This document shows positions 24,595-35,418 of a stretch of DNA of 35,418 bases, piece by piece. Origin of the DNA: Cycloclasticus sp. GTDB lineage: Bacteria > Pseudomonadota > Gammaproteobacteria > Methylococcales > Cycloclasticaceae. The position numbers and the translations under genes are program-made. Each line of letters opens with the position of its first letter. The first letter of the stretch is position 1. The stretch covers positions 1-35,418 of the forward strand of contig DUCS01000014.1 in the NCBI GenBank assembly GCA_012959695.1, read 5' to 3'. Under the pieces are notes generated by a model, which was not told the DNA's origin, searched no databases, and worked only from the letters and a program-made list of their open reading frames with translations.

Positions 24595-25764
24595 ATGGCT
24601 GTTATAGAACATGATGAATGGATAAGGCGGGCTGATTTAATTGGTAAGAAAGCAGAGCCGATGGTGGCAGCGGCTGAGAAAGCGGGTTGCTTTCCCTTAG
24701 AATTACGTGATTATGTTCATGAGCTTGAGATGCATAAAGCTTTACGACCTTTGCAGTATGGTGGTTCTGGTATTGGTGCGTTTACGTTCTCTGAAATTGT
24801 TCGGACGATTGCTAATTACAATGCATCGGCTGCATGGCTGGTTTATTTTGTTGTATTACATGAGCAATGGGTTGCCTTTTTGGATGAAAAGGGCCGCCAA
24901 GAAGTGTACGACAGTGATAAATTAACCGGTGATATTTTTATGCCGTTAGGTCAAATTGAATACGTTGATGGTGGTGTTCGAATCTCCGGTCAATGGTCAT
25001 TTGGTAGCGGTGTGTTATGGAATGATTGGATGGGCTTAGGTGCTATTGTTCAAGTGCCGGGTGAAGATCCGCAGCCTTGTTTGGTGAATGTTGAAAAGGC
25101 TCAGCTTGAAGTGATTGAAGACTGGAACCCGTTTGGCCTTCGTGGCACGGGTAGTCACAGTGTGAAAGTAGATGATGTATTTGTGCCTTGGCACCGTATT
25201 CTTCCTGTTTTAAACGCGAAAAATAAAGGTGAGCCAGTGGGCGGGCATTATTCGGATGAACCGATTTTCAAAGTACCGTTTATGGCGTTTTTCTGTTTGG
25301 GCTTTCCTGCTATTTCAACGGGTATTGCACAACGGGTGGCGCGTGACTTAAAAGTACGTGTAGAAGGTCGCCAACGTATTTTATATAACATGAAAGAGTG
25401 GGAGTCACCGATTGCGCAACGTAACCTTGCTGAAGTGATGGTGAGAGTGGATGCTATTGAGGCGATGAATACACGTTATGTTGACCAGCTAGAAGAGTGG
25501 ATTGAAGCGGGTACGCCGGTTGTTTCGGAACAAGAAAAAAATAAAATGAGTGCTTGGCGTTCGCATGTTGGTAAGGAAGCATCCGATTTGGCTTTCCATG
25601 CGATGAGCCTGTTAGGTGCGTCTTCTACAGGCAGTGGTGACCCGCTTGAAACGGCGGCCCGTGATGCTTTTATGGTGTACATTCATTTGGGTCAAATTTA
25701 TGAAGACAATATGATGGCATATGGTAGAACACAGTTTGGTTTATCAGGGCATCCGTTGTTGTAA
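24595..25764 (+). CDS. Acyl-CoA-dehydrogenase-fold flavin-dependent monooxygenase (HsaA/DszC-like)
   Basis: 389 residues, typical of group D flavin oxygenases such as HsaA and p-hydroxyphenylacetate hydroxylase C2. It has an N-terminal helical domain, a middle beta domain with ISGQWSFGSGVLWNDWMGLG (about 129-148) and the FGLRGTGSHSVKVDDVFVP segment (about 181-199), and a C-terminal four-helix domain. The catalytic Glu of true acyl-CoA dehydrogenases is not evident, and the SGxWxFxSG motif is the hydroxylase type. These enzymes use reduced flavin from a partner to hydroxylate phenols or related compounds. Ribosome site GGAG. A terminator separates it from the Fre-like reductase that follows. 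Confidence 0.8.
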   Translation: MAVIEHDEWIRRADLIGKKAEPMVAAAEKAGCFPLELRDYVHELEMHKALRPLQYGGSGIGAFTFSEIVRTIANYNASAAWLVYFVVLHEQWVAFLDEKGRQEVYDSDKLTGDIFMPLGQIEYVDGGVRISGQWSFGSGVLWNDWMGLGAIVQVPGEDPQPCLVNVEKAQLEVIEDWNPFGLRGTGSHSVKVDDVFVPWHRILPVLNAKNKGEPVGGHYSDEPIFKVPFMAFFCLGFPAISTGIAQRVARDLKVRVEGRQRILYNMKEWESPIAQRNLAEVMVRVDAIEAMNTRYVDQLEEWIEAGTPVVSEQEKNKMSAWRSHVGKEASDLAFHAMSLLGASSTGSGDPLETAARDAFMVYIHLGQIYEDNMMAYGRTQFGLSGHPLL

Positions 25765-27126: not shown

Positions 27127-28137
27127 ATGAGTATTGAGATTTCAGCAAAAACCATACAGCCAGTTCGTTTGTCGTATGGCAATTTAAAAGAACGTTTTGG
27201 CGACAAGAAGCCTGCTTCTCGTTATCAAGAAGCTGTATATGACATTCAGCCAACAGCAAATTTTCATTACCGTCCGCTTTGGGATAAGAACCATGAGCTT
27301 TACGATGCGAGTAGAACTGCCATTGTGATGGAAGATTGGTATAGCTTTGCTGATCCGCGTCAGTACTATTACGGCACCTATACGATTGCTCGCGCTAAGC
27401 AGCAAGATGTGGCGGAGCATAACTTTGCATTTGTAGATAAGCGTGATTTATTCGATTCTGTGCCGGAAGAAGTAAAACAAGCGGCGCGTGAAATTTTAGT
27501 GCCGTTGCGTCATGTTGAGTGGGCAGCGAATATGAATAACTGCCAAATTACAGACGAATGTTATGGTTCAAACTTTAGTACGGTTGCCATGTTTAATGCG
27601 ATGGACCGATTGGGTATGGCTCAATACGTTACGCGCCTCGGTTTGTTGTTAGACGGCAATGAAGAAACAAGCTTAGATGCGGGTAAGAAAGCTTGGATGG
27701 AAGCGCCTGAATGGCAAGGTTTACGCCATGCGATTGAAGACATGTTTGTGCTTGATGATTGGTTTGAGCTAATGGTTGCGCAGAACTTCGTACTGGATGG
27801 TTTAGTGTTCCCGCTTTTATATGATCGTTTCGAGAAAAAACTAACCACAGACGGCGGTGCGACTATCGCCATGCTGACTGAGTTTATGGATGATTGGTAT
27901 AAAGAAACGGTTCGTTGGACAAATGCCTTAGCCAAAGTAACGGCAAAAGAATCAGAAGCCAATCAAGAATTATTAAGCGAATGGACGAATAAATGGACGG
28001 ATAGACTGGTTGGTGCGTTGGAGCCAGTTGCCGCTAAAGCATTCGGTGCTGATGGTATTGAGCAGCTAACAGAAGTTAAAGAAGAGTTGCTCGCACGCCT
28101 TACTAAAAATGGCATTACTGGATTAAAAAGGAGTTAA
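27127..28137 (+). CDS. dmpL: Phenol hydroxylase oxygenase beta subunit DmpL
   Basis: 336 residues, close to DmpL (about 331). It belongs to the ferritin-like beta subunits of bacterial multicomponent monooxygenases but lacks paired ExxH iron motifs, as expected for the structural subunit that wraps the catalytic one. Recognisable stretches include FHYRPLWDKNHELYD near 38-52 and DPRQYYYGTYTIARAKQQD near 76-94. It forms the (alpha-beta-gamma)2 hydroxylase with DmpN and DmpO. Ribosome site AGGAGA. dmpM starts 2 bases after its stop. Confidence 0.92.
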   Translation: MSIEISAKTIQPVRLSYGNLKERFGDKKPASRYQEAVYDIQPTANFHYRPLWDKNHELYDASRTAIVMEDWYSFADPRQYYYGTYTIARAKQQDVAEHNFAFVDKRDLFDSVPEEVKQAAREILVPLRHVEWAANMNNCQITDECYGSNFSTVAMFNAMDRLGMAQYVTRLGLLLDGNEETSLDAGKKAWMEAPEWQGLRHAIEDMFVLDDWFELMVAQNFVLDGLVFPLLYDRFEKKLTTDGGATIAMLTEFMDDWYKETVRWTNALAKVTAKESEANQELLSEWTNKWTDRLVGALEPVAAKAFGADGIEQLTEVKEELLARLTKNGITGLKRS

Positions 28138-28139
28138 GC

Positions 28140-28418
28140 ATGTCAAATAAGAAAAACACGGTATTTTTAATTGTTCAAGATAATGAAGATGCGCGCCCTA
28201 TTATTGAAGCCGTTGAGCGAGATAATCCAGAGGCTAATATTCAATATCAACCGGGAATGGTTCGTATGGAAGCTGCCGGTCGGTTGATTGTTAACCGCGA
28301 GACGGTAGAAGAGGAAATTGGTCGCGAATGGGATGTGCAAGAGCTCCATCTTGTTCTTGTTTCATTGGCCGGAAATGTTGATGAAGACGAAGATAAATTT
28401 GAACTTAGCTGGCACTAA
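28140..28418 (+). CDS. dmpM: Phenol hydroxylase effector protein DmpM
   Basis: 92 residues, the normal size of MmoB/DmpM effector proteins. It has no cofactor motifs. The core GMVRMEAAGRLIVNRETVEE (about 40-59) is typical. The protein binds the hydroxylase and tunes oxygen activation and product release. Its ribosome site AGGAG lies in the last codons of dmpL, so the two are translationally coupled. Confidence 0.92.
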   Translation: MSNKKNTVFLIVQDNEDARPIIEAVERDNPEANIQYQPGMVRMEAAGRLIVNRETVEEEIGREWDVQELHLVLVSLAGNVDEDEDKFELSWH

Positions 28419-28444
28419 CTGCCAGAGCTAAAGAGGATAATAAA

Positions 28445-29962
28445 ATGCCAGCAAAAAAACTAAATTTACGTAAGCGTTACGAGCTATTAACGCGTGGAAT
28501 GGGTTGGGAAACAACGCATCACGATATGGATGATGTGTTTCCATACGATTCATTTGAAGGAATTAAAATTACTGATTGGGATAAGTGGGAAGACCCGTTC
28601 CGTTTAACAATGGATGCTTATTGGAAATTCCAAGCGGAAAAAGAGAAAAAACTGTACGCGGTTATTGATAGCTTCGCACAAAATAACGGTCAAACTAACC
28701 TGTCCGATGCCAGCTACTTGAGTGCGATTAAGCTATTCATTACCGGTGTTACGCCAATTGAATACGCGGCTCATCGTGGTTTTGCTCATTTGGGTCGTCA
28801 CTTCCGTGGTGACGGTGCGCGTGTTGCGTGTCAAATGCAGGCGATTGACGAGTTGCGTCATCAGCAAACTCAGGTTCATACGATTAGTCATTACAATAAG
28901 CACTTCAATGGCTTGCATGACCCGTTCTATCAGTTTGATAGAGTTTGGTACTTGTCAGTGCCTAAGTCATTCGCTGAAGATGCGATGACGGCCGGACCTT
29001 TCGAATTCATTACATCAATCTCATTCGCTTTTGAGTATGTATTAACAAACATGTTGTTTGTGCCGTTTATGTCTGGCGCTGCTTACAACGGTGATATGGC
29101 AACGGTAACCTTTGGTTTCTCAGCACAGTCTGATGAGTCACGTCATATGACGCTAGGTCTTGAAATTATTAAATTTATGCTTGAACAGCACGAAGATAAT
29201 TTACCAATTGTTCAACGTTGGATGGATAAGCATTTCTGGAGAGCGTATCGTTTATTGGCGCTAGTATCAGCGATGCAGGATTACATGCTAACAAACAGCC
29301 CGCTGTCTTGGAAAGAAGCGTGGGATGTGTACTTTGTTGAAAACGGTGGTGCCTTATTTGAAGATTTGTCACGTTACGGTCTTAGAATGCCGAAATATCA
29401 CGAATTGGCAACGGCCGAAGCAGATCATTTGAGTCACCAAGTATGGTCGGTCTTTTGTTTGCTTGGCAATGCAACGGGTTTCCATACGTTCCTTCCTACG
29501 GAAGAAAAAATGGACTGGTTGTCTGAGAAGTATCCAGATACGTTTGATAAATACTACCGCCCACGTTTTGAACATTGGGCTAAGCAAAAAGAAGAAGGTA
29601 CCTTTAAATATCTAGAGGCGCTTCCTCAGTTGTGCCAAGTGTGTCAAATTCCAATGATATTTACAGAAGTCGAAACAGATCCAATGCAACTTAGCTTCAG
29701 AGCATCTGAATATAAGGGTGATAAATACAATACGTGTTCAGATGGCTGTAAAGATATCTTTGATCATGAGCCTGAAAAATATGCGCAGGCATGGTTGCCA
29801 GTGCATCAAATATTCCAAGGTAACTGTGGCGGAGCAACCATTCCAGAAGTACTTGAGTGGTATAAATTCGCACCAGAAGATGGCGGCGATTATATTGGTT
29901 CACAAGATCATGCTCGCTGGCAAGAATGGAAAGGCACAGACAAAAAAGTGAAGGAAGCTTAA
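28445..29962 (+). CDS. dmpN: Phenol hydroxylase catalytic alpha subunit DmpN
   Basis: 505 residues. The di-iron ligands are all visible: Glu106 (IEYAAH), Glu136 and His139 (DELRH), Glu197 (AFEYVL), and Glu231 and His234 (DESRH). A C-terminal zinc site is present as Cys397, Cys400, Cys431 and Cys435. It hydroxylates phenol and methylphenols to catechols at the di-iron centre, with electrons from DmpP and control by DmpM. Lengths and motifs are intact, so the oxygenase should be functional. Ribosome site GAGGAT. dmpO follows after a 29-base gap. Confidence 0.95.
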   Translation: MPAKKLNLRKRYELLTRGMGWETTHHDMDDVFPYDSFEGIKITDWDKWEDPFRLTMDAYWKFQAEKEKKLYAVIDSFAQNNGQTNLSDASYLSAIKLFITGVTPIEYAAHRGFAHLGRHFRGDGARVACQMQAIDELRHQQTQVHTISHYNKHFNGLHDPFYQFDRVWYLSVPKSFAEDAMTAGPFEFITSISFAFEYVLTNMLFVPFMSGAAYNGDMATVTFGFSAQSDESRHMTLGLEIIKFMLEQHEDNLPIVQRWMDKHFWRAYRLLALVSAMQDYMLTNSPLSWKEAWDVYFVENGGALFEDLSRYGLRMPKYHELATAEADHLSHQVWSVFCLLGNATGFHTFLPTEEKMDWLSEKYPDTFDKYYRPRFEHWAKQKEEGTFKYLEALPQLCQVCQIPMIFTEVETDPMQLSFRASEYKGDKYNTCSDGCKDIFDHEPEKYAQAWLPVHQIFQGNCGGATIPEVLEWYKFAPEDGGDYIGSQDHARWQEWKGTDKKVKEA

Positions 29963-29991
29963 GGCTTGCAGATTAAAGTTAGGAGATAAAA

Positions 29992-30351
29992 ATGGCAGTT
30001 ATAGCAAAAGACGGTTACGTAGATATCGTTAGAGATAAAGTAGAAAATTTTCACGGCAACCAGTTGGTCCATGTTTGTTGGGATGATCATTTGTTGTTTT
30101 CCGCGGCGCAAGCGTTTCCCTTACCGCCAGAAATGCCATTTCAGGCATTGGTGTCGGAGGTGATGACACCGGTTTTTTCTTATCACCCAGATTTTGAAAA
30201 AATAGATTGGGCTGCTGTAGAGTGGATGCTTGATGGTGAAGCATTTACACCGGAAATGGATAAATCGTTAAAAGACAACGGTGTTTGTCATAAGTCTTTA
30301 ATTCGTTTCAAAACACCGGGTTTAATGGGTATTAATGGAACAAGGTTATAA
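29992..30351 (+). CDS. dmpO: Phenol hydroxylase oxygenase gamma subunit DmpO
   Basis: 119 residues, as in DmpO. It shows the family pattern VHVCWDDHLLFSAAQAFPLP (about 26-45), then FSYHPDFEKIDW and a tail SLIRFKTPGLMGINGTRL. It is the small structural subunit of the hydroxylase hexamer. The start follows a strong TAGGAGAT ribosome site. Its stop is 3 bases from the dmpP start. Confidence 0.92.
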   Translation: MAVIAKDGYVDIVRDKVENFHGNQLVHVCWDDHLLFSAAQAFPLPPEMPFQALVSEVMTPVFSYHPDFEKIDWAAVEWMLDGEAFTPEMDKSLKDNGVCHKSLIRFKTPGLMGINGTRL

Positions 30352-30354
30352 ACG

Positions 30355-31419
30355 ATGAGCTTTGAAGTTACCATTGAGCCGTTAGGCGTTACGATTGAAG
30401 TTGAAGACGGTCAAACTATTTTAGATGCCTCGTTAAGACAGGGCGTTTATTTGCCGCATGCCTGTGGCCACGGTTTATGTGGTACCTGTAAAGTGGATGT
30501 GCTGGAAGGTGAATTCGTAATTGGCGATGAAGCATCGCCATTTGCTTTGATGGATTTTGAGCGCGAAGAAAAATGCCTAACGTGTTGCACAATACCGGAG
30601 TCTGATCTGGTTATTGAAGCGGACGTTGAAGAAGAGCCGGATGCTGCAAATATTCCGGTTCGAGACTTCACAGGTAAAGTGGTTAAGATTGAAAAGTTAA
30701 CACCCAGGATTGTGGGTGTATTTTTGGAAATTGAAGACGATGAAATTGAGTTCCAATCGGGCCAGTATGCAAATTTGCATATTCCAGGTTTGGATACGCC
30801 GCGCCCATTTTCAATGGCGCAATCACCTAATGAAAAAACAATTATTGAGTTTGATATTGCTTTAATCCCGGGCGGTGAAGGCACAACATGGATTCATAAC
30901 GAATTAAAAGTAGGTGATACGCTTGAATTATCTGCACCTTACGGGCATTTCTTCCTAAGAACGTCTGACGATAAACCGATGGTGTTCTTTGGTGGTGGTT
31001 CTGGTTTGGCGAGTCCTAAATCAATGGTTCTGGATTTATTAGAGTCTGGTGATACGCGTGAAATTATTTTGTTCCAAGGCGCTAGAAATATAGAAGAGCT
31101 TTACTATAAAGACTTGTTTGAAGAGTTGGATGCTAAGCATGCAAACTTTACCTATGTGCCAGGTTTATCGGGCCCAGATATTGAGCCAGAATGGGAAGGC
31201 GCAACGGGGTATATTCATGAAGTAGCAAAAGAACATATGGATAATAAATTTGAAGGCTATCGCGCTTATATGTGTGGTCCGCCAGTAATGATTGATGCGT
31301 GTATTACGATGTTAATGCGCGGCCGTTTGTTTGAAAAAGACATGTTTATGGAAAAATTCTTTAGCGCGGCAGACGCGGAATCTGAAAGTAAAAAGAGTCC
31401 ATTATTTAGAAATATTTAA
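30355..31419 (+). CDS. dmpP: Phenol hydroxylase reductase DmpP
   Basis: 354 residues, the DmpP length. An N-terminal plant-type [2Fe-2S] domain has Cys37, Cys42, Cys45 and Cys77. The FAD barrel has RPFSMAQS near 143-150 and the NAD lobe has FFGGGSGLASPKSM near 204-217 and MCGPPVM near 304-310. It moves electrons from NADH through FAD and the iron-sulfur centre to DmpN. All motifs are standard, in contrast to the Fre-like protein at 25850. It might also serve the XylM-like and BenAB oxygenases that lack reductases in this window; that is speculation. Confidence 0.95.
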   Translation: MSFEVTIEPLGVTIEVEDGQTILDASLRQGVYLPHACGHGLCGTCKVDVLEGEFVIGDEASPFALMDFEREEKCLTCCTIPESDLVIEADVEEEPDAANIPVRDFTGKVVKIEKLTPRIVGVFLEIEDDEIEFQSGQYANLHIPGLDTPRPFSMAQSPNEKTIIEFDIALIPGGEGTTWIHNELKVGDTLELSAPYGHFFLRTSDDKPMVFFGGGSGLASPKSMVLDLLESGDTREIILFQGARNIEELYYKDLFEELDAKHANFTYVPGLSGPDIEPEWEGATGYIHEVAKEHMDNKFEGYRAYMCGPPVMIDACITMLMRGRLFEKDMFMEKFFSAADAESESKKSPLFRNI

Positions 31420-31427
31420 TACTCAAT

Positions 31428-31730
31428 ATGTCGTTTCAAATTACGATTGAAGACACAGGTGAACAGTATGCCTGTAGTGAGACGAAACATGTATTAGCAG
31501 GTATGCAACAATTGGGTAAAAAAGGCATACCGGTTGGCTGTAGAAGTGGTGGTTGCGGTGTTTGTAAAGTTCGGGTGCTTGAGGGTGAATATGCCAGCAA
31601 GAAGATGAGCAGAGATCACGTAACCGCTGAAGAAGAGGCAGAAGGTGTTGTATTAGCATGCCGTATATTTCCTCAGTCGAACATTCGATTGAGCGTGATT
31701 GGTAAGCTTAATAAGGCCGTTAATAGGTAG
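31428..31730 (+). CDS. dmpQ: DmpQ/XylT-type ferredoxin that reactivates catechol 2,3-dioxygenase
   Basis: 100 residues with the chloroplast-type [2Fe-2S] ligands Cys38, Cys43, Cys46 and Cys78 (CRSGGCGVCK...ACR). In meta-cleavage operons this ferredoxin reduces the oxidised active-site iron of catechol 2,3-dioxygenase, protecting it from inactivation by 4-methylcatechol and similar substrates. It starts 8 bases after dmpP, and dmpB follows after 66 bases. Confidence 0.92.
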   Translation: MSFQITIEDTGEQYACSETKHVLAGMQQLGKKGIPVGCRSGGCGVCKVRVLEGEYASKKMSRDHVTAEEEAEGVVLACRIFPQSNIRLSVIGKLNKAVNR

Positions 31731-31796: not shown

Positions 31797-32717
31797 ATGG
31801 CAATGACCGGAATTTTACGTCCAGGACATGTTCAGCTGAGAGTGCTGGATATGGAAGAATCACTAAATCACTATGTTGAAAACATGGGTTTGCTTGAAAC
31901 AGATCGTGACGACCAAGGGCGTGTATATTTGAAGTGTTGGGATGAGCAAGATAAGTTCTCTTTGGTATTGGAGCCTTCTGATCGTTCTGGTATGGACCAC
32001 ATGGCATTTAAAGTGGCGACGGAGGAAGACTTAAGTCGCTTTGAATCAAATATAAAAAACTTCGGTATTGAAACAACTAGAGTTGCCGCGGGTGAACTAA
32101 ATGGTTGTGGTGAACGTGTTCGTTTTACTGCGCCAGCAGGACACACGTTTGAGTTGTATGCTGAAAAAGAGCAGGTTGGTAATGGTATCTCTACCACTAA
32201 TCCAGCACCTTGGCGTCGTGATCTTAAAGGCATGGAAGTGATTCGTTTTGACCATTGCTTGCTGTATGGAGATAACTTTGATGAAAACGTAAAGTTCTTT
32301 AAAGAAGCATTGGAGTTCCAATTAACTGAACAAATAGTGGATGGTGATTTACAAATCGCGGCGTTCTTAACGTGTAGCACAAAGGCGCACGATATTGCCT
32401 TTATTCGTTCAGAAGAATCAGGCAAGTTACACCATGCATCTTTCTTGCTGGGTTCATGGGAAGAAGTGCTTAAAGCGGCGGATATCATCTCAATGGAAGA
32501 TATTCCTCATGAAACTGGTCCAACACGTCATGGTTTAACACGAGGCAAAACTATTTATTTCTTTGACCCTTCTGGAAACCGTAATGAAGTATTTGCCGAA
32601 GACAGTTATGTTTACCCAGATAGCCCTGTTTTAACATGGAATGCTGATAATGTTGGGCAGGCCATTTTCTATCATTCACGTGAGTTGGTTGATAGCTTTA
32701 TGGGCGTAACATCGTAA
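31797..32717 (+). CDS. dmpB: Catechol 2,3-dioxygenase DmpB/XylE
   Basis: 306 residues, the XylE size. Two vicinal-oxygen-chelate domains. Fe(II) ligands are His153 (FDHCLLYG), His213 (LHHASF) and Glu264 (GNRNEVF); catalytic His198, His245 and Tyr254 are present. It performs extradiol meta-cleavage of catechols to 2-hydroxymuconic semialdehydes. Ribosome site AGGAGA. It is preceded by its reactivating ferredoxin and followed by a DUF336 gene rather than directly by dmpC. Confidence 0.96.
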
Positions 32718-32723
32718 CCTGCT

Positions 32724-33143
32724 ATGTCTAATAGCATTACAAGTAAAAATATTTCAACACAAGCTGCTTGCACTGCGGTGCAAGCAGCCGTTGAAAAAGC
32801 AAAAGAGCTAGGCATCGGTATTAATGCCTGTGTTGTTGATAGTTCCGCAACAGAAATCGCTTTTTTACGAATGAATAATTCATTTCTGCCATCTATGGGA
32901 ATTGCTAAAGATAAGGCGTATACGTCTGCTGGCTTTGGCTTTCCAACCATGGGCTGGGGCGATGCGCTTAAAGGTAATGTACAATTACAAGCAGGTATCG
33001 TTGCAAGGCCAAGGGTTGTTACCTTTGGTGGCGGGTTGCCGATTATGGAAGGTGATGAACTGATTGGCGCTATTGGTGTCTCAGGTGGTTCAGAAGAAGA
33101 AGATATTTTGTGCGCGCAAGCGGGCATAGATTCAATTAAATAA
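32724..33143 (+). CDS. DUF336/GlcG/HbpS-family protein
   Basis: 139 residues, the family length. Family stretches are AAVEKAKELGIGINACVVD (about 21-39), AFLRMNNSFLPSMGIAKDKAYTS, and the Gly-rich end FGGGLPIMEGDELIGAIGVSGG (about 97-118). Known members bind haem or corrinoid or act in diol and glycolate metabolism. Genes of this family are common inside meta-cleavage operons, where their role is not settled. It begins 6 bases after dmpB and takes the place between dmpB and dmpC. A chaperone or redox sensor role for the cleavage enzymes is possible but unproven. Confidence 0.85.
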   Translation: MSNSITSKNISTQAACTAVQAAVEKAKELGIGINACVVDSSATEIAFLRMNNSFLPSMGIAKDKAYTSAGFGFPTMGWGDALKGNVQLQAGIVARPRVVTFGGGLPIMEGDELIGAIGVSGGSEEEDILCAQAGIDSIK

Positions 33144-33158
33144 ATTAAGGTTATTAAT

Positions 33159-34610
33159 ATGAGAGAAGTTAAAGGCTTTATTAACGGCGAGTACGTTACA
33201 TCAGGTGAGTTTGGTGATATTTTTTCACCAACAACCGGCGAATTGGTGTGTCAATATCACCAAACAAGTGTTGAGCAAGTTGGCGAAGCTGTAGATGCAG
33301 CTAAAGCTGCGTTAAAAGGCCCTTGGGCTGGCTTTTCATTACAAGACCGCGTTGATATTTTATATAAAATTGCCGATGGCATTGATGCGCGTTTTGATGA
33401 GTTCCTAGCAGCTGAATGTTTAGATACCGGTAAGCCTTATTCTTTAGCAAGTCATATTGATATTCCACGTGGCGCTGCAAACTTTAAAGTGTTTGCCGAC
33501 ACCATTAAAAATGCAGCAGACGAAGCATTCCATATGCCAACACCTGACGGCACCGGTGCTATTAACTATACGGTACGTAAACCAAAAGGTGTGATTGGTG
33601 TTATTGGCCCTTGGAATTTACCTTTATTATTAATGACATGGAAAATTGCACCGGCTTTGGCCTGTGGTAATACAGTCGTTGTTAAACCTTCTGAAGAAAC
33701 ACAATTGACGTCAACCTTATTGGGCGAAGTAATGAACGATGCAGGCGTGCCAAAAGGCGTTTATAACGTTATTTTAGGCCCGGGTCGTGAAGTAGGTGAA
33801 GCGTTAATTACTAATCCAGGTTTGGATGCGATTACCTTTACGGGTTCTACACCAACAGGCGAACGAATTGCAAAAGCGGCTTCCGTTGGCGTCCGCGACT
33901 CTTCATTAGAGTTGGGCGGCAAAAATGCAGGTATCGTCTTTGCAGATTGTGATATGGACAAAGCAATTGAAGGCACATTGCGTTCAGCATTCGCTAACTG
34001 TGGCCAAGTTTGTCTGGGTACCGAACGCTTATACGTAGAACGTTCAATCTTTGATGAATTTGTAGCACGTTTAAAAGAAGGTGCAGAAGCGCTTAAACTA
34101 GGCAAATCTGAAGACTCAGAAACAAATATGGGTCCGCTTATTAGTAAGTCTCATCGCGAAAAAGTGCTGGGCTACTTCAAAGCAGCAACTGATGAAGGTG
34201 CGACGGTTGTAACAGGCGGCGGTATTCCAGATATGCCAGACGATTTATCAGGCGGCTACTGGGTTCAGCCAACAATTTGGACGGGGTTGCCAGAAACAGC
34301 AACGGTCGTTCAAGAAGAAATTTTTGGCCCTTGTACACACATATCACCGTTTGACACAGAAGATGAAGCCATTAAATTAGCGAACGATACGCCGTATGGT
34401 TTAGCAGCTTCAGTTTGGACAGAAAACGTTTCTCGCGCTCATAGAGTGTCTGCACAAATGGATGTGGGTATTTGTTGGGTAAATAGCTGGTTCTTACGTG
34501 ATTTGCGTACACCGTTTGGTGGAGCAAAACAGTCAGGTACAGGCCGTGAAGGTGGTCATTATTCGTTAGAGTTCTACACAGAACTCACGAACGTTTGTAT
34601 TAAATTATAA
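33159..34610 (+). CDS. dmpC: 2-Hydroxymuconic semialdehyde dehydrogenase DmpC
   Basis: 483 residues of the aldehyde dehydrogenase superfamily. The catalytic Cys285 (FANCGQVCLG), general base Glu251 (LELGGK) and oxyanion Asn153 (PWNLP) are all present, along with the NAD site FTGSTPTGE (227-235). It oxidises the ring-cleavage semialdehyde to 2-hydroxymuconate (4-oxalocrotonate branch), matching the position in dmp and xyl operons. No DmpD hydrolase gene lies in the usual spot after it, so the dehydrogenase branch seems to be the main route at this locus. It is followed 9 bases later by dmpE. Confidence 0.94.
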   Translation: MREVKGFINGEYVTSGEFGDIFSPTTGELVCQYHQTSVEQVGEAVDAAKAALKGPWAGFSLQDRVDILYKIADGIDARFDEFLAAECLDTGKPYSLASHIDIPRGAANFKVFADTIKNAADEAFHMPTPDGTGAINYTVRKPKGVIGVIGPWNLPLLLMTWKIAPALACGNTVVVKPSEETQLTSTLLGEVMNDAGVPKGVYNVILGPGREVGEALITNPGLDAITFTGSTPTGERIAKAASVGVRDSSLELGGKNAGIVFADCDMDKAIEGTLRSAFANCGQVCLGTERLYVERSIFDEFVARLKEGAEALKLGKSEDSETNMGPLISKSHREKVLGYFKAATDEGATVVTGGGIPDMPDDLSGGYWVQPTIWTGLPETATVVQEEIFGPCTHISPFDTEDEAIKLANDTPYGLAASVWTENVSRAHRVSAQMDVGICWVNSWFLRDLRTPFGGAKQSGTGREGGHYSLEFYTELTNVCIKL

Positions 34611-34619
34611 GGAACAACA

Positions 34620-35381
34620 ATGGATCAAGATAAAATTATTCAATACGGTGATGAACTGTATAACGCGTTAATTACACGTCAAACCATCGCGCCAATTACC
34701 GAGCGTTCACCAGAAGTAACGATTGAAGATGCGTATAAAATTCAACACCAAATGCTTAAGCGCCGAATTGATGGAGGCGAAAGCATTGTCGGTAAAAAAA
34801 TTGGCGTGACCAGCAAAGTTGTGATGAACATGTTGGGTGTTTATCAACCTGATTTTGGATACTTGCTAACGGATATGATTGTGTCTGAAGGCCAAGAAAT
34901 TCCTGTGTCTGAAAAAATGATTCCGTTTATCCTTAAGAAGGATTTGTGTGGGCCTGGACTTACTAGTGCAGATATTCTAGCGGCGACAGAGGCTGTGATG
35001 CCGTGTTTTGAAATTGTTGATTCACGTATTACTGATTGGAAAATAAAAATCCAAGATACCATTGCAGATAACGCGTCATGTGGTTATTTGGTGTTAGGCG
35101 GCACAATGGTTGATCCACGTAAAGTTGATTTAGGTGTATGCGGTCTTGTATTAGAAAAAAATGGCGAGCTTATGCACACAGGTGCTGGCGCAGCGGCGTT
35201 AGGTTCACCAGTGAATGCAATGGTATGGTTGGCTAACACAATGGGCGCGTTAGGCGTTACATTGAAAGCAGGTGAAATTATTTTGTCTGGCGCATTATGT
35301 GCGATGGTCGATGCAAAAGCCGGTGATTCAATGCGAGTAAGCATTGGTGGTATCGGTTCATGCGGCGTTCGCTTCGTATAA
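34620..35381 (+). CDS. dmpE: 2-Hydroxypenta-2,4-dienoate hydratase DmpE, lacking the ExE metal motif
   Basis: 253 residues of the FAH-fold hydratase/decarboxylase family, best fitting DmpE (MhpD/DmpE type) rather than DmpH. Kept residues include Lys60 (VGKKIG), Asp78 (QPDFG) and Glu131 (CFEIVDSR), and the N- and C-terminal parts read like DmpE throughout. But between SEKMI (97-101) and FILKKDL (103-109) the family has about eight further residues, the PRxExEIA block with two of the three metal-ligand Glu; here there is only Pro102. As I recall, DmpE is 261 residues, exactly eight more. The reading frame is intact. The hydratase would turn 2-hydroxypentadienoate into 4-hydroxy-2-oxovalerate; without these ligands activity is doubtful. 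A true small deletion, an assembly error or a redundant paralogue are all possible. Confidence 0.88.
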   Translation: MDQDKIIQYGDELYNALITRQTIAPITERSPEVTIEDAYKIQHQMLKRRIDGGESIVGKKIGVTSKVVMNMLGVYQPDFGYLLTDMIVSEGQEIPVSEKMIPFILKKDLCGPGLTSADILAATEAVMPCFEIVDSRITDWKIKIQDTIADNASCGYLVLGGTMVDPRKVDLGVCGLVLEKNGELMHTGAGAAALGSPVNAMVWLANTMGALGVTLKAGEIILSGALCAMVDAKAGDSMRVSIGGIGSCGVRFV

Positions 35382-35397
35382 TTTAGGAGAATAAGAA

Positions 35398-35418
35398 ATG
35401 GCAATTAATTGTGCAATG
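35398..35418 (+). CDS. Start of next operon gene (partial, probably acetaldehyde dehydrogenase DmpF)
   Basis: Seven codons, reading MAINCAM, run off the window edge. A strong ribosome site TAGGAGAA lies 7 bases upstream. In dmp operons the gene after dmpE encodes acylating acetaldehyde dehydrogenase DmpF, whose N-terminus in related proteins is of the form xCAxIGxGNIG; the NCA fits but the sequence is too short to prove it. Confidence 0.5.

Follow-up and report, generated by a model that had tools for sequence, protein, structure and literature searches.

The closest described counterparts of the gene reported here are the DmpE/XylJ hydratases (TIGR03220), together with E. coli MhpD (1sv6, 2wqt) and HpcG (2eb4, 2eb5, 2eb6), which have the same fold and align with our protein over nearly the full length. 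Glu106, Glu108 and Glu139, in HpcG numbering, are the metal ligands. The first two form an ExE pair that both MhpD and HpcG carry, whereas the full-length alignment leaves a plain gap at this position in the protein described below. A dead DmpE would halt the catechol meta pathway at 2-hydroxypenta-2,4-dienoate. The hydration of this compound is described in a study in which 4-oxalocrotonate decarboxylase also functions as a complex with the hydratase (PMC5480330), and a second study states that the metal-free apo-enzyme of a related hydratase has no detectable activity (PMC12718150). In Cycloclasticus, a catechol meta-cleavage pathway is reported for one of two MAGs (PMC12510462). Among the matches listed in our literature search, titles and opening lines of abstracts held no report of a hydratase lacking ExE, nor of a Cycloclasticus dmpE pseudogene.

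The window analysed here is the whole stretch of DNA under study and spans all 35418 bases of contig C14. It belongs to the draft genome of a marine, oil-degrading Cycloclasticus bacterium; this draft, of 1.7 Mb, comprises 44 contigs and is 80% complete. Positions 34620–35381 of its forward strand hold an open reading frame of 253 codons, otherwise intact, with a 24-base deletion. We assign it to dmpE, encoding 2-oxopent-4-enoate (2-hydroxypenta-2,4-dienoate) hydratase, from the reading frame, its TIGR03220 match and its ortholog in the relative G012. TIGR03220 is the best family (401.3 bits), at a score under the curated cut-off of 408.8, with the runner-up far behind at 216.2 bits. The protein shares 98% identity with its G012 ortholog over the aligned residues, and 83–98% with the 10 intact orthologs from kin genomes as a group. 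Aligned as DNA with all 10, the gene has a single gap of 24 bases between positions 34923 and 34924, inside the sequence SEKMI-PFIL encoded at 34908–34934, where most of the QPKAEGEIA of the orthologs is absent. Q102-PKAEGEI-A110 of the 261-residue orthologs is thereby replaced by one proline, its CCG codon assembled from bases of both flanks, with the loss of Glu106 and Glu108; the lost piece is somewhat larger than ExE alone. Counting along the HpcG alignment, the lost residues are HpcG Glu106 and Glu108 and the one retained is Glu139. The latter corresponds to Glu139 of the orthologs and Glu131 of the window protein (codon 35010–35012), the surviving third ligand. Lys60 (34797–34799) and Asp78 (34851–34853) are likewise kept. 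The original prediction had the metal-binding ExE motif removed in one clean in-frame 24-base piece from a protein of 253 rather than 261 residues, with Glu131, Lys60 and Asp78 spared, and it is borne out in each of these respects; since the intact orthologs have 261 residues, the shortfall of 8 is correct.

The two deleted glutamates are fully conserved in the homologs examined. K60, D78, E106, E108 and E139 are invariant in 30/30 homologs of alignment A2, a subset picked by the analyst. The ExE pair is also kept in 80/80 loci examined in a genome scan, these being the best 80 of 577 recognised relatives; at least seven of the 80 lie on contigs already represented by kin loci, and the scan may have left out records very close to the window's genome. 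A 24-base deletion could be placed in dmpE in 753 ways, 16 of which (2%) take out both Glu codons, a figure that is no significance test because the site was spotted by eye. Judged by its sequence, the gene is dmpE by descent: like DmpE/XylJ genes it adjoins dmpC, and it retains Lys60, Asp78 and the third ligand in a meta-cleavage operon setting. It differs from a working family member in missing Q102–A110, including Glu106 and Glu108, and in scoring below the curated cut-off. None of the usual marks of a pseudogene (frameshift, premature stop, relaxed constraint) is seen.

Four blocks collinear with G012 span the length of the contig. Upstream of dmpE, on the same strand, lie dmpC, for 2-hydroxymuconic semialdehyde dehydrogenase (33159–34610; TIGR03216, 807.5 bits, cut-off 693.25), and dmpB, for catechol 2,3-dioxygenase (31797–32717; TIGR03211, 431.8 bits, cut-off 320.2), both gapless against G012. 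They are preceded by five reading frames (27127–31419, forward strand), again gapless against G012, which, judging by their translations, look like phenol/toluene hydroxylase components. A family search with the last of these (30355–31419) gave hits to flavin/iron-sulfur reductase families at scores under the respective cut-offs. A 139-residue protein encoded between the dioxygenase and dehydrogenase genes (32724–33143) is 96% identical to its G012 counterpart, and its sole NCBIfam match is weak (PRK09732, 33.1 bits; cut-off 246). Two genes, those for a small ferredoxin (31428–31730; 85% identity to G012, dN 0.12) and for the catechol 2,3-dioxygenase (89%, dN 0.07), are less conserved than the other operon genes compared. 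Downstream, the contig ends 37 bases past dmpE, with the first seven codons of a truncated dmpF (35398–35418, forward strand), which places the deletion junction 495 bases from the contig end, beside an assembly gap. G012 continues with dmpF-, dmpG- and dmpH-like reading frames; the order dmpF, dmpG, dmpH is taken from G012 and from contig C3, these genes falling mostly inside the gap of the window's genome. About 2.5 kb, holding dmpF, dmpG and most of dmpH in G012, is missing between 35418 and the start of contig C3 (L100, L101), where the operon resumes with the 3' end of dmpH. A search of the draft for dmpG returned distant homologs only, at most 36% identical.

Orthologs were sought at E ≤ 1e-60 in 61 genomes, the window's own and 60 kin, and dmpE was matched in 12 of them. 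The matches comprise the window gene, 10 intact orthologs (nine within the genus and a tenth in G029, which belongs to the same order) and a damaged copy in G015. The junction peptide, searched as a degenerate pattern, occurs in one of 18 genus genomes, the window's own, and is absent from the 17 others, several of which are incomplete. Used as one of six scan probes, it was also absent from the best 80 of the 577 recognised relatives. Exact scans of viral contigs gave no match to the junction or to a flank, and megablast against plasmids gave no near match to 33100–35418; 564 plasmid records contain a distant relative.

Structure prediction was applied to the window protein and its intact G012 ortholog, the former with the ortholog's same 30 alignment rows plus the window sequence itself. 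AlphaFold2 modelled the ortholog with a mean pLDDT of 86.1 and a pTM of 0.85, placing the ExE pair within a strand at residues 103–113. For the window protein the values fall to 68.8 and 0.58, the strand is reduced to residues 102–105, and pLDDT is below 50 at residues 64–67, 92–100, 134–142, 151–156 and 192–194. AlphaFold2 judges small deletions poorly, and the comparison is limited to the window model against the intact ortholog. Speaking against misfolding, the window model reaches TM-scores of 0.87–0.92 with hydratase structures (0.90–0.95 for the ortholog model); with HpcG and MhpD the window model scores 0.91–0.92 and the ortholog model 0.93–0.95. The window model thus looks like a distorted version of the fold typical of the family. 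With a relative inactive as apo-enzyme and the fold predicted to be poorer, it is natural to infer that activity is lost, and the window enzyme is most likely dead. The earlier proposal of an inactive or metal-free hydratase thus holds in its first half: an inactive protein fits best, while a working metal-free form is unlikely because most of the ligand-bearing strand is gone and the predicted fold is damaged.

Comparison with G012 bears on the age of the lesion. The two dmpE genes differ by 77 synonymous and 5 non-synonymous codon differences (dN 0.012, dS 0.69), the lowest dN among the 10 operon genes compared; one (24595–25764) of the two non-operon full-length genes compared has a slightly lower dN of 0.010. 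The 5 amino acid differences outside the gap include A52G, A163M and V220I, three changes that, of 11 sequences, only the window's has. The low dN indicates that the gene was constrained until recently. In a rough Poisson estimate of neutral time with a window-branch dS of 0.35, neutrality over 10% of the branch would yield about 20 non-synonymous changes, making 4 or fewer improbable (P = 1.5e-5), and neutrality over 5% would yield about 10 (P = 0.028). With a branch dS of 0.26, a hand estimate from splitting the synonymous changes 23 to 38, the bound on neutral time is still about a tenth. With no excess of non-synonymous change, the lesion would be recent, or unreal, or the protein would still be selected for another role.

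We favour, at a probability of roughly 60%, a recent inactivating 24-base deletion in Cycloclasticus dmpE with loss of hydratase activity, probably as ordinary gene decay. By this account the in-frame deletion would recently have hit dmpE in the cell, taking away most of a strand of the active site and, with it, two of the three carboxylate ligands. The protein would then most likely fail to bind its divalent metal properly, fold poorly and leave 2-hydroxypenta-2,4-dienoate unhydrated. The final part of the catechol meta pathway would be blocked, or would rely on another hydratase, for which an HpaH-type protein is the sole candidate to pass a cut-off. The lack of relaxed constraint counts against this explanation, as it fits an artefact or a retained function too.

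The original prediction had called for a search for a second hydratase gene, and the draft was found to contain an HpaH-type hydratase with an intact ExE pair and no second DmpE that we could find. A search of the window's own genome at E ≤ 1 returned four places: the window gene, contigs C13 and C11, and the start of C3. The C13 protein scores 409.2 bits against the HpaH-type cut-off of 351.5, has its ExE pair intact (alignment A1) and adjoins an HpaI-like aldolase (328.2 bits, below the cut-off of 368.8). It is the only other family protein in the 80%-complete draft over a hydratase cut-off. It scores as a 7-carbon diacid enzyme, and as a backup for the 5-carbon substrate it is, by sequence, a possible but weak candidate. 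The C11 protein is distant, its best family being dmpH-like at 78.9 bits, far below the cut-off, and was rejected as a backup DmpE. The piece at the start of C3 was likewise rejected as a second hydratase, being the 3' end of dmpH and the continuation of the same operon.

A parallel case of decay of this gene comes from G015, a genus mate whose genome is 99% complete. Its dmpE (L015, L103; G015:C196) is interrupted by a stop codon and has lost 48 bases at one place and a single base at another. The 48-base deletion lies between GAAGG repeats, where the G012 gene shows an imperfect 9-base repeat at a spacing of 48. The likeness to the window is that a deletion has struck this part of dmpE in both; the difference is that the G015 deletion leaves EGE and is accompanied by a stop and a 1-base frameshift, making a plain pseudogene. 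On that contig the matches to dmpC and dmpG change reading frame and dmpH is matched in its first part only, while dmpF is whole in one frame, so that several pathway genes look broken at the sequence level. The catechol dioxygenase of the G015 meta-cleavage operon is only 47% identical to that of the window. The rpoB gene of G015 is open over its full length, so a generally broken assembly does not explain the lesions, although one gene is a thin control; two further control proteins from the window had no match in G015 at E ≤ 1e-30. Furthermore, 7 of the 17 genus mates have no dmpE ortholog at E ≤ 1e-60, and three of these (G008, G011 and G016) are at least 98% complete. Together with the G015 lesions, this indicates that loss of dmpE happens in the genus, supporting the reading as ordinary decay.

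The most serious alternative is that dmpE is undamaged in the organism itself and that the junction in the contig is chimeric or rare, arising from assembly, amplification or a minority variant. The fragmentary draft, the end of the contig so soon after dmpE, the operon segment missing before C3 and the unrelaxed constraint, which an artefact predicts, all speak for it. Noise across the window as a whole can be set aside, however. Among 31 non-overlapping reading frames paired with G012 (one of them antisense to another and one a poor 108-residue frame, neither judged a gene), 25 are gapless and 6 gapped, dmpE included, arguing that the contig is not noisy in general. The other five have 1, 1, 2, 6 and 6 gap residues, so the 8 residues of dmpE are the largest single gap. 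A perfect 10-base direct repeat, TGTGTCTGAA, occurs twice just upstream of the junction (34880–34889 and 34904–34913, forward strand) at a spacing of exactly 24. Slippage through it was rejected, since neither copy is missing, the deleted bases are found further downstream and the intact ortholog L009 shares the repeat; with 10 relatives compared, its presence in L009 suggests that it is probably coincidental. Repeat search and ortholog comparison found no direct repeat at the two breakpoints that a k-mer assembler could collapse; the direct repeats nearby measure 9–10 bases, and none of them brackets the deletion. Counting against a real deletion, the simplest alignment shows no microhomology at the breakpoints. 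An alternative parse, with the deletion between two ATT triplets and a G-to-C change, needs one extra change. Near the position of the left breakpoint, the G012 gene has a pair of imperfect inverted repeats, of 14 and 12 bases; repeats of this type could promote a real deletion or, by template switching, an amplification chimera alike. Against an artefact, the contig is mostly free of gaps in its remaining genes, and a contig k-mer spanning the junction should stem from some read. We thus hold an artefact to be possible but rather unlikely, and a recent mutation more likely than an assembly fault. Between the two origins first proposed, a strain-specific lesion fits better, and assembly error is its main rival.

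It is far less probable, in our estimation, that the hydratase-dead DmpE is a maintained pseudoenzyme, retained as a non-catalytic structural partner of DmpH while the HpaH-type enzyme performs the hydration. The kept frame and the constraint, which is not visibly relaxed, would agree with such a role, as would the presence in the draft of both the 3' end of dmpH and the HpaH-type hydratase. The complex formation described in PMC5480330 has a structural parallel in the decarboxylase–hydratase complex of Pseudomonas sp. AP-3 (8ih6), where a homologous hydratase chain is seated with the decarboxylase; that chain has the ligand motif, however. The low confidence of the window model, with its poorly predicted blocks at 92–100, 134–142 and 151–156, argues against a scaffold, as do the 7-carbon diacid assignment of the HpaH-type enzyme and the presence of the allele in a single genome, too few to gauge constraint after the deletion. 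Residual or altered activity, with metal held through Glu131 and other residues or with none at all, is just as improbable: Glu131, Lys60 and Asp78 are kept and the overall fold class is still recognised in the model, but two of the three ligands and most of their strand are gone, leaving a plain gap in the full-length alignment, and the apo relative had no detectable activity (PMC12718150).

If the deletion is real, as in the recent inactivation that we favour, this oil-degrading genus would offer a naturally occurring allele of a metal-dependent hydratase that has lost metal ligands by deletion. Annotators who merely count genes would then score the catechol pathway of this organism as complete, though one step is probably dead. 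The allele might further serve to learn if the decarboxylase needs the hydratase as a body, apart from its activity.
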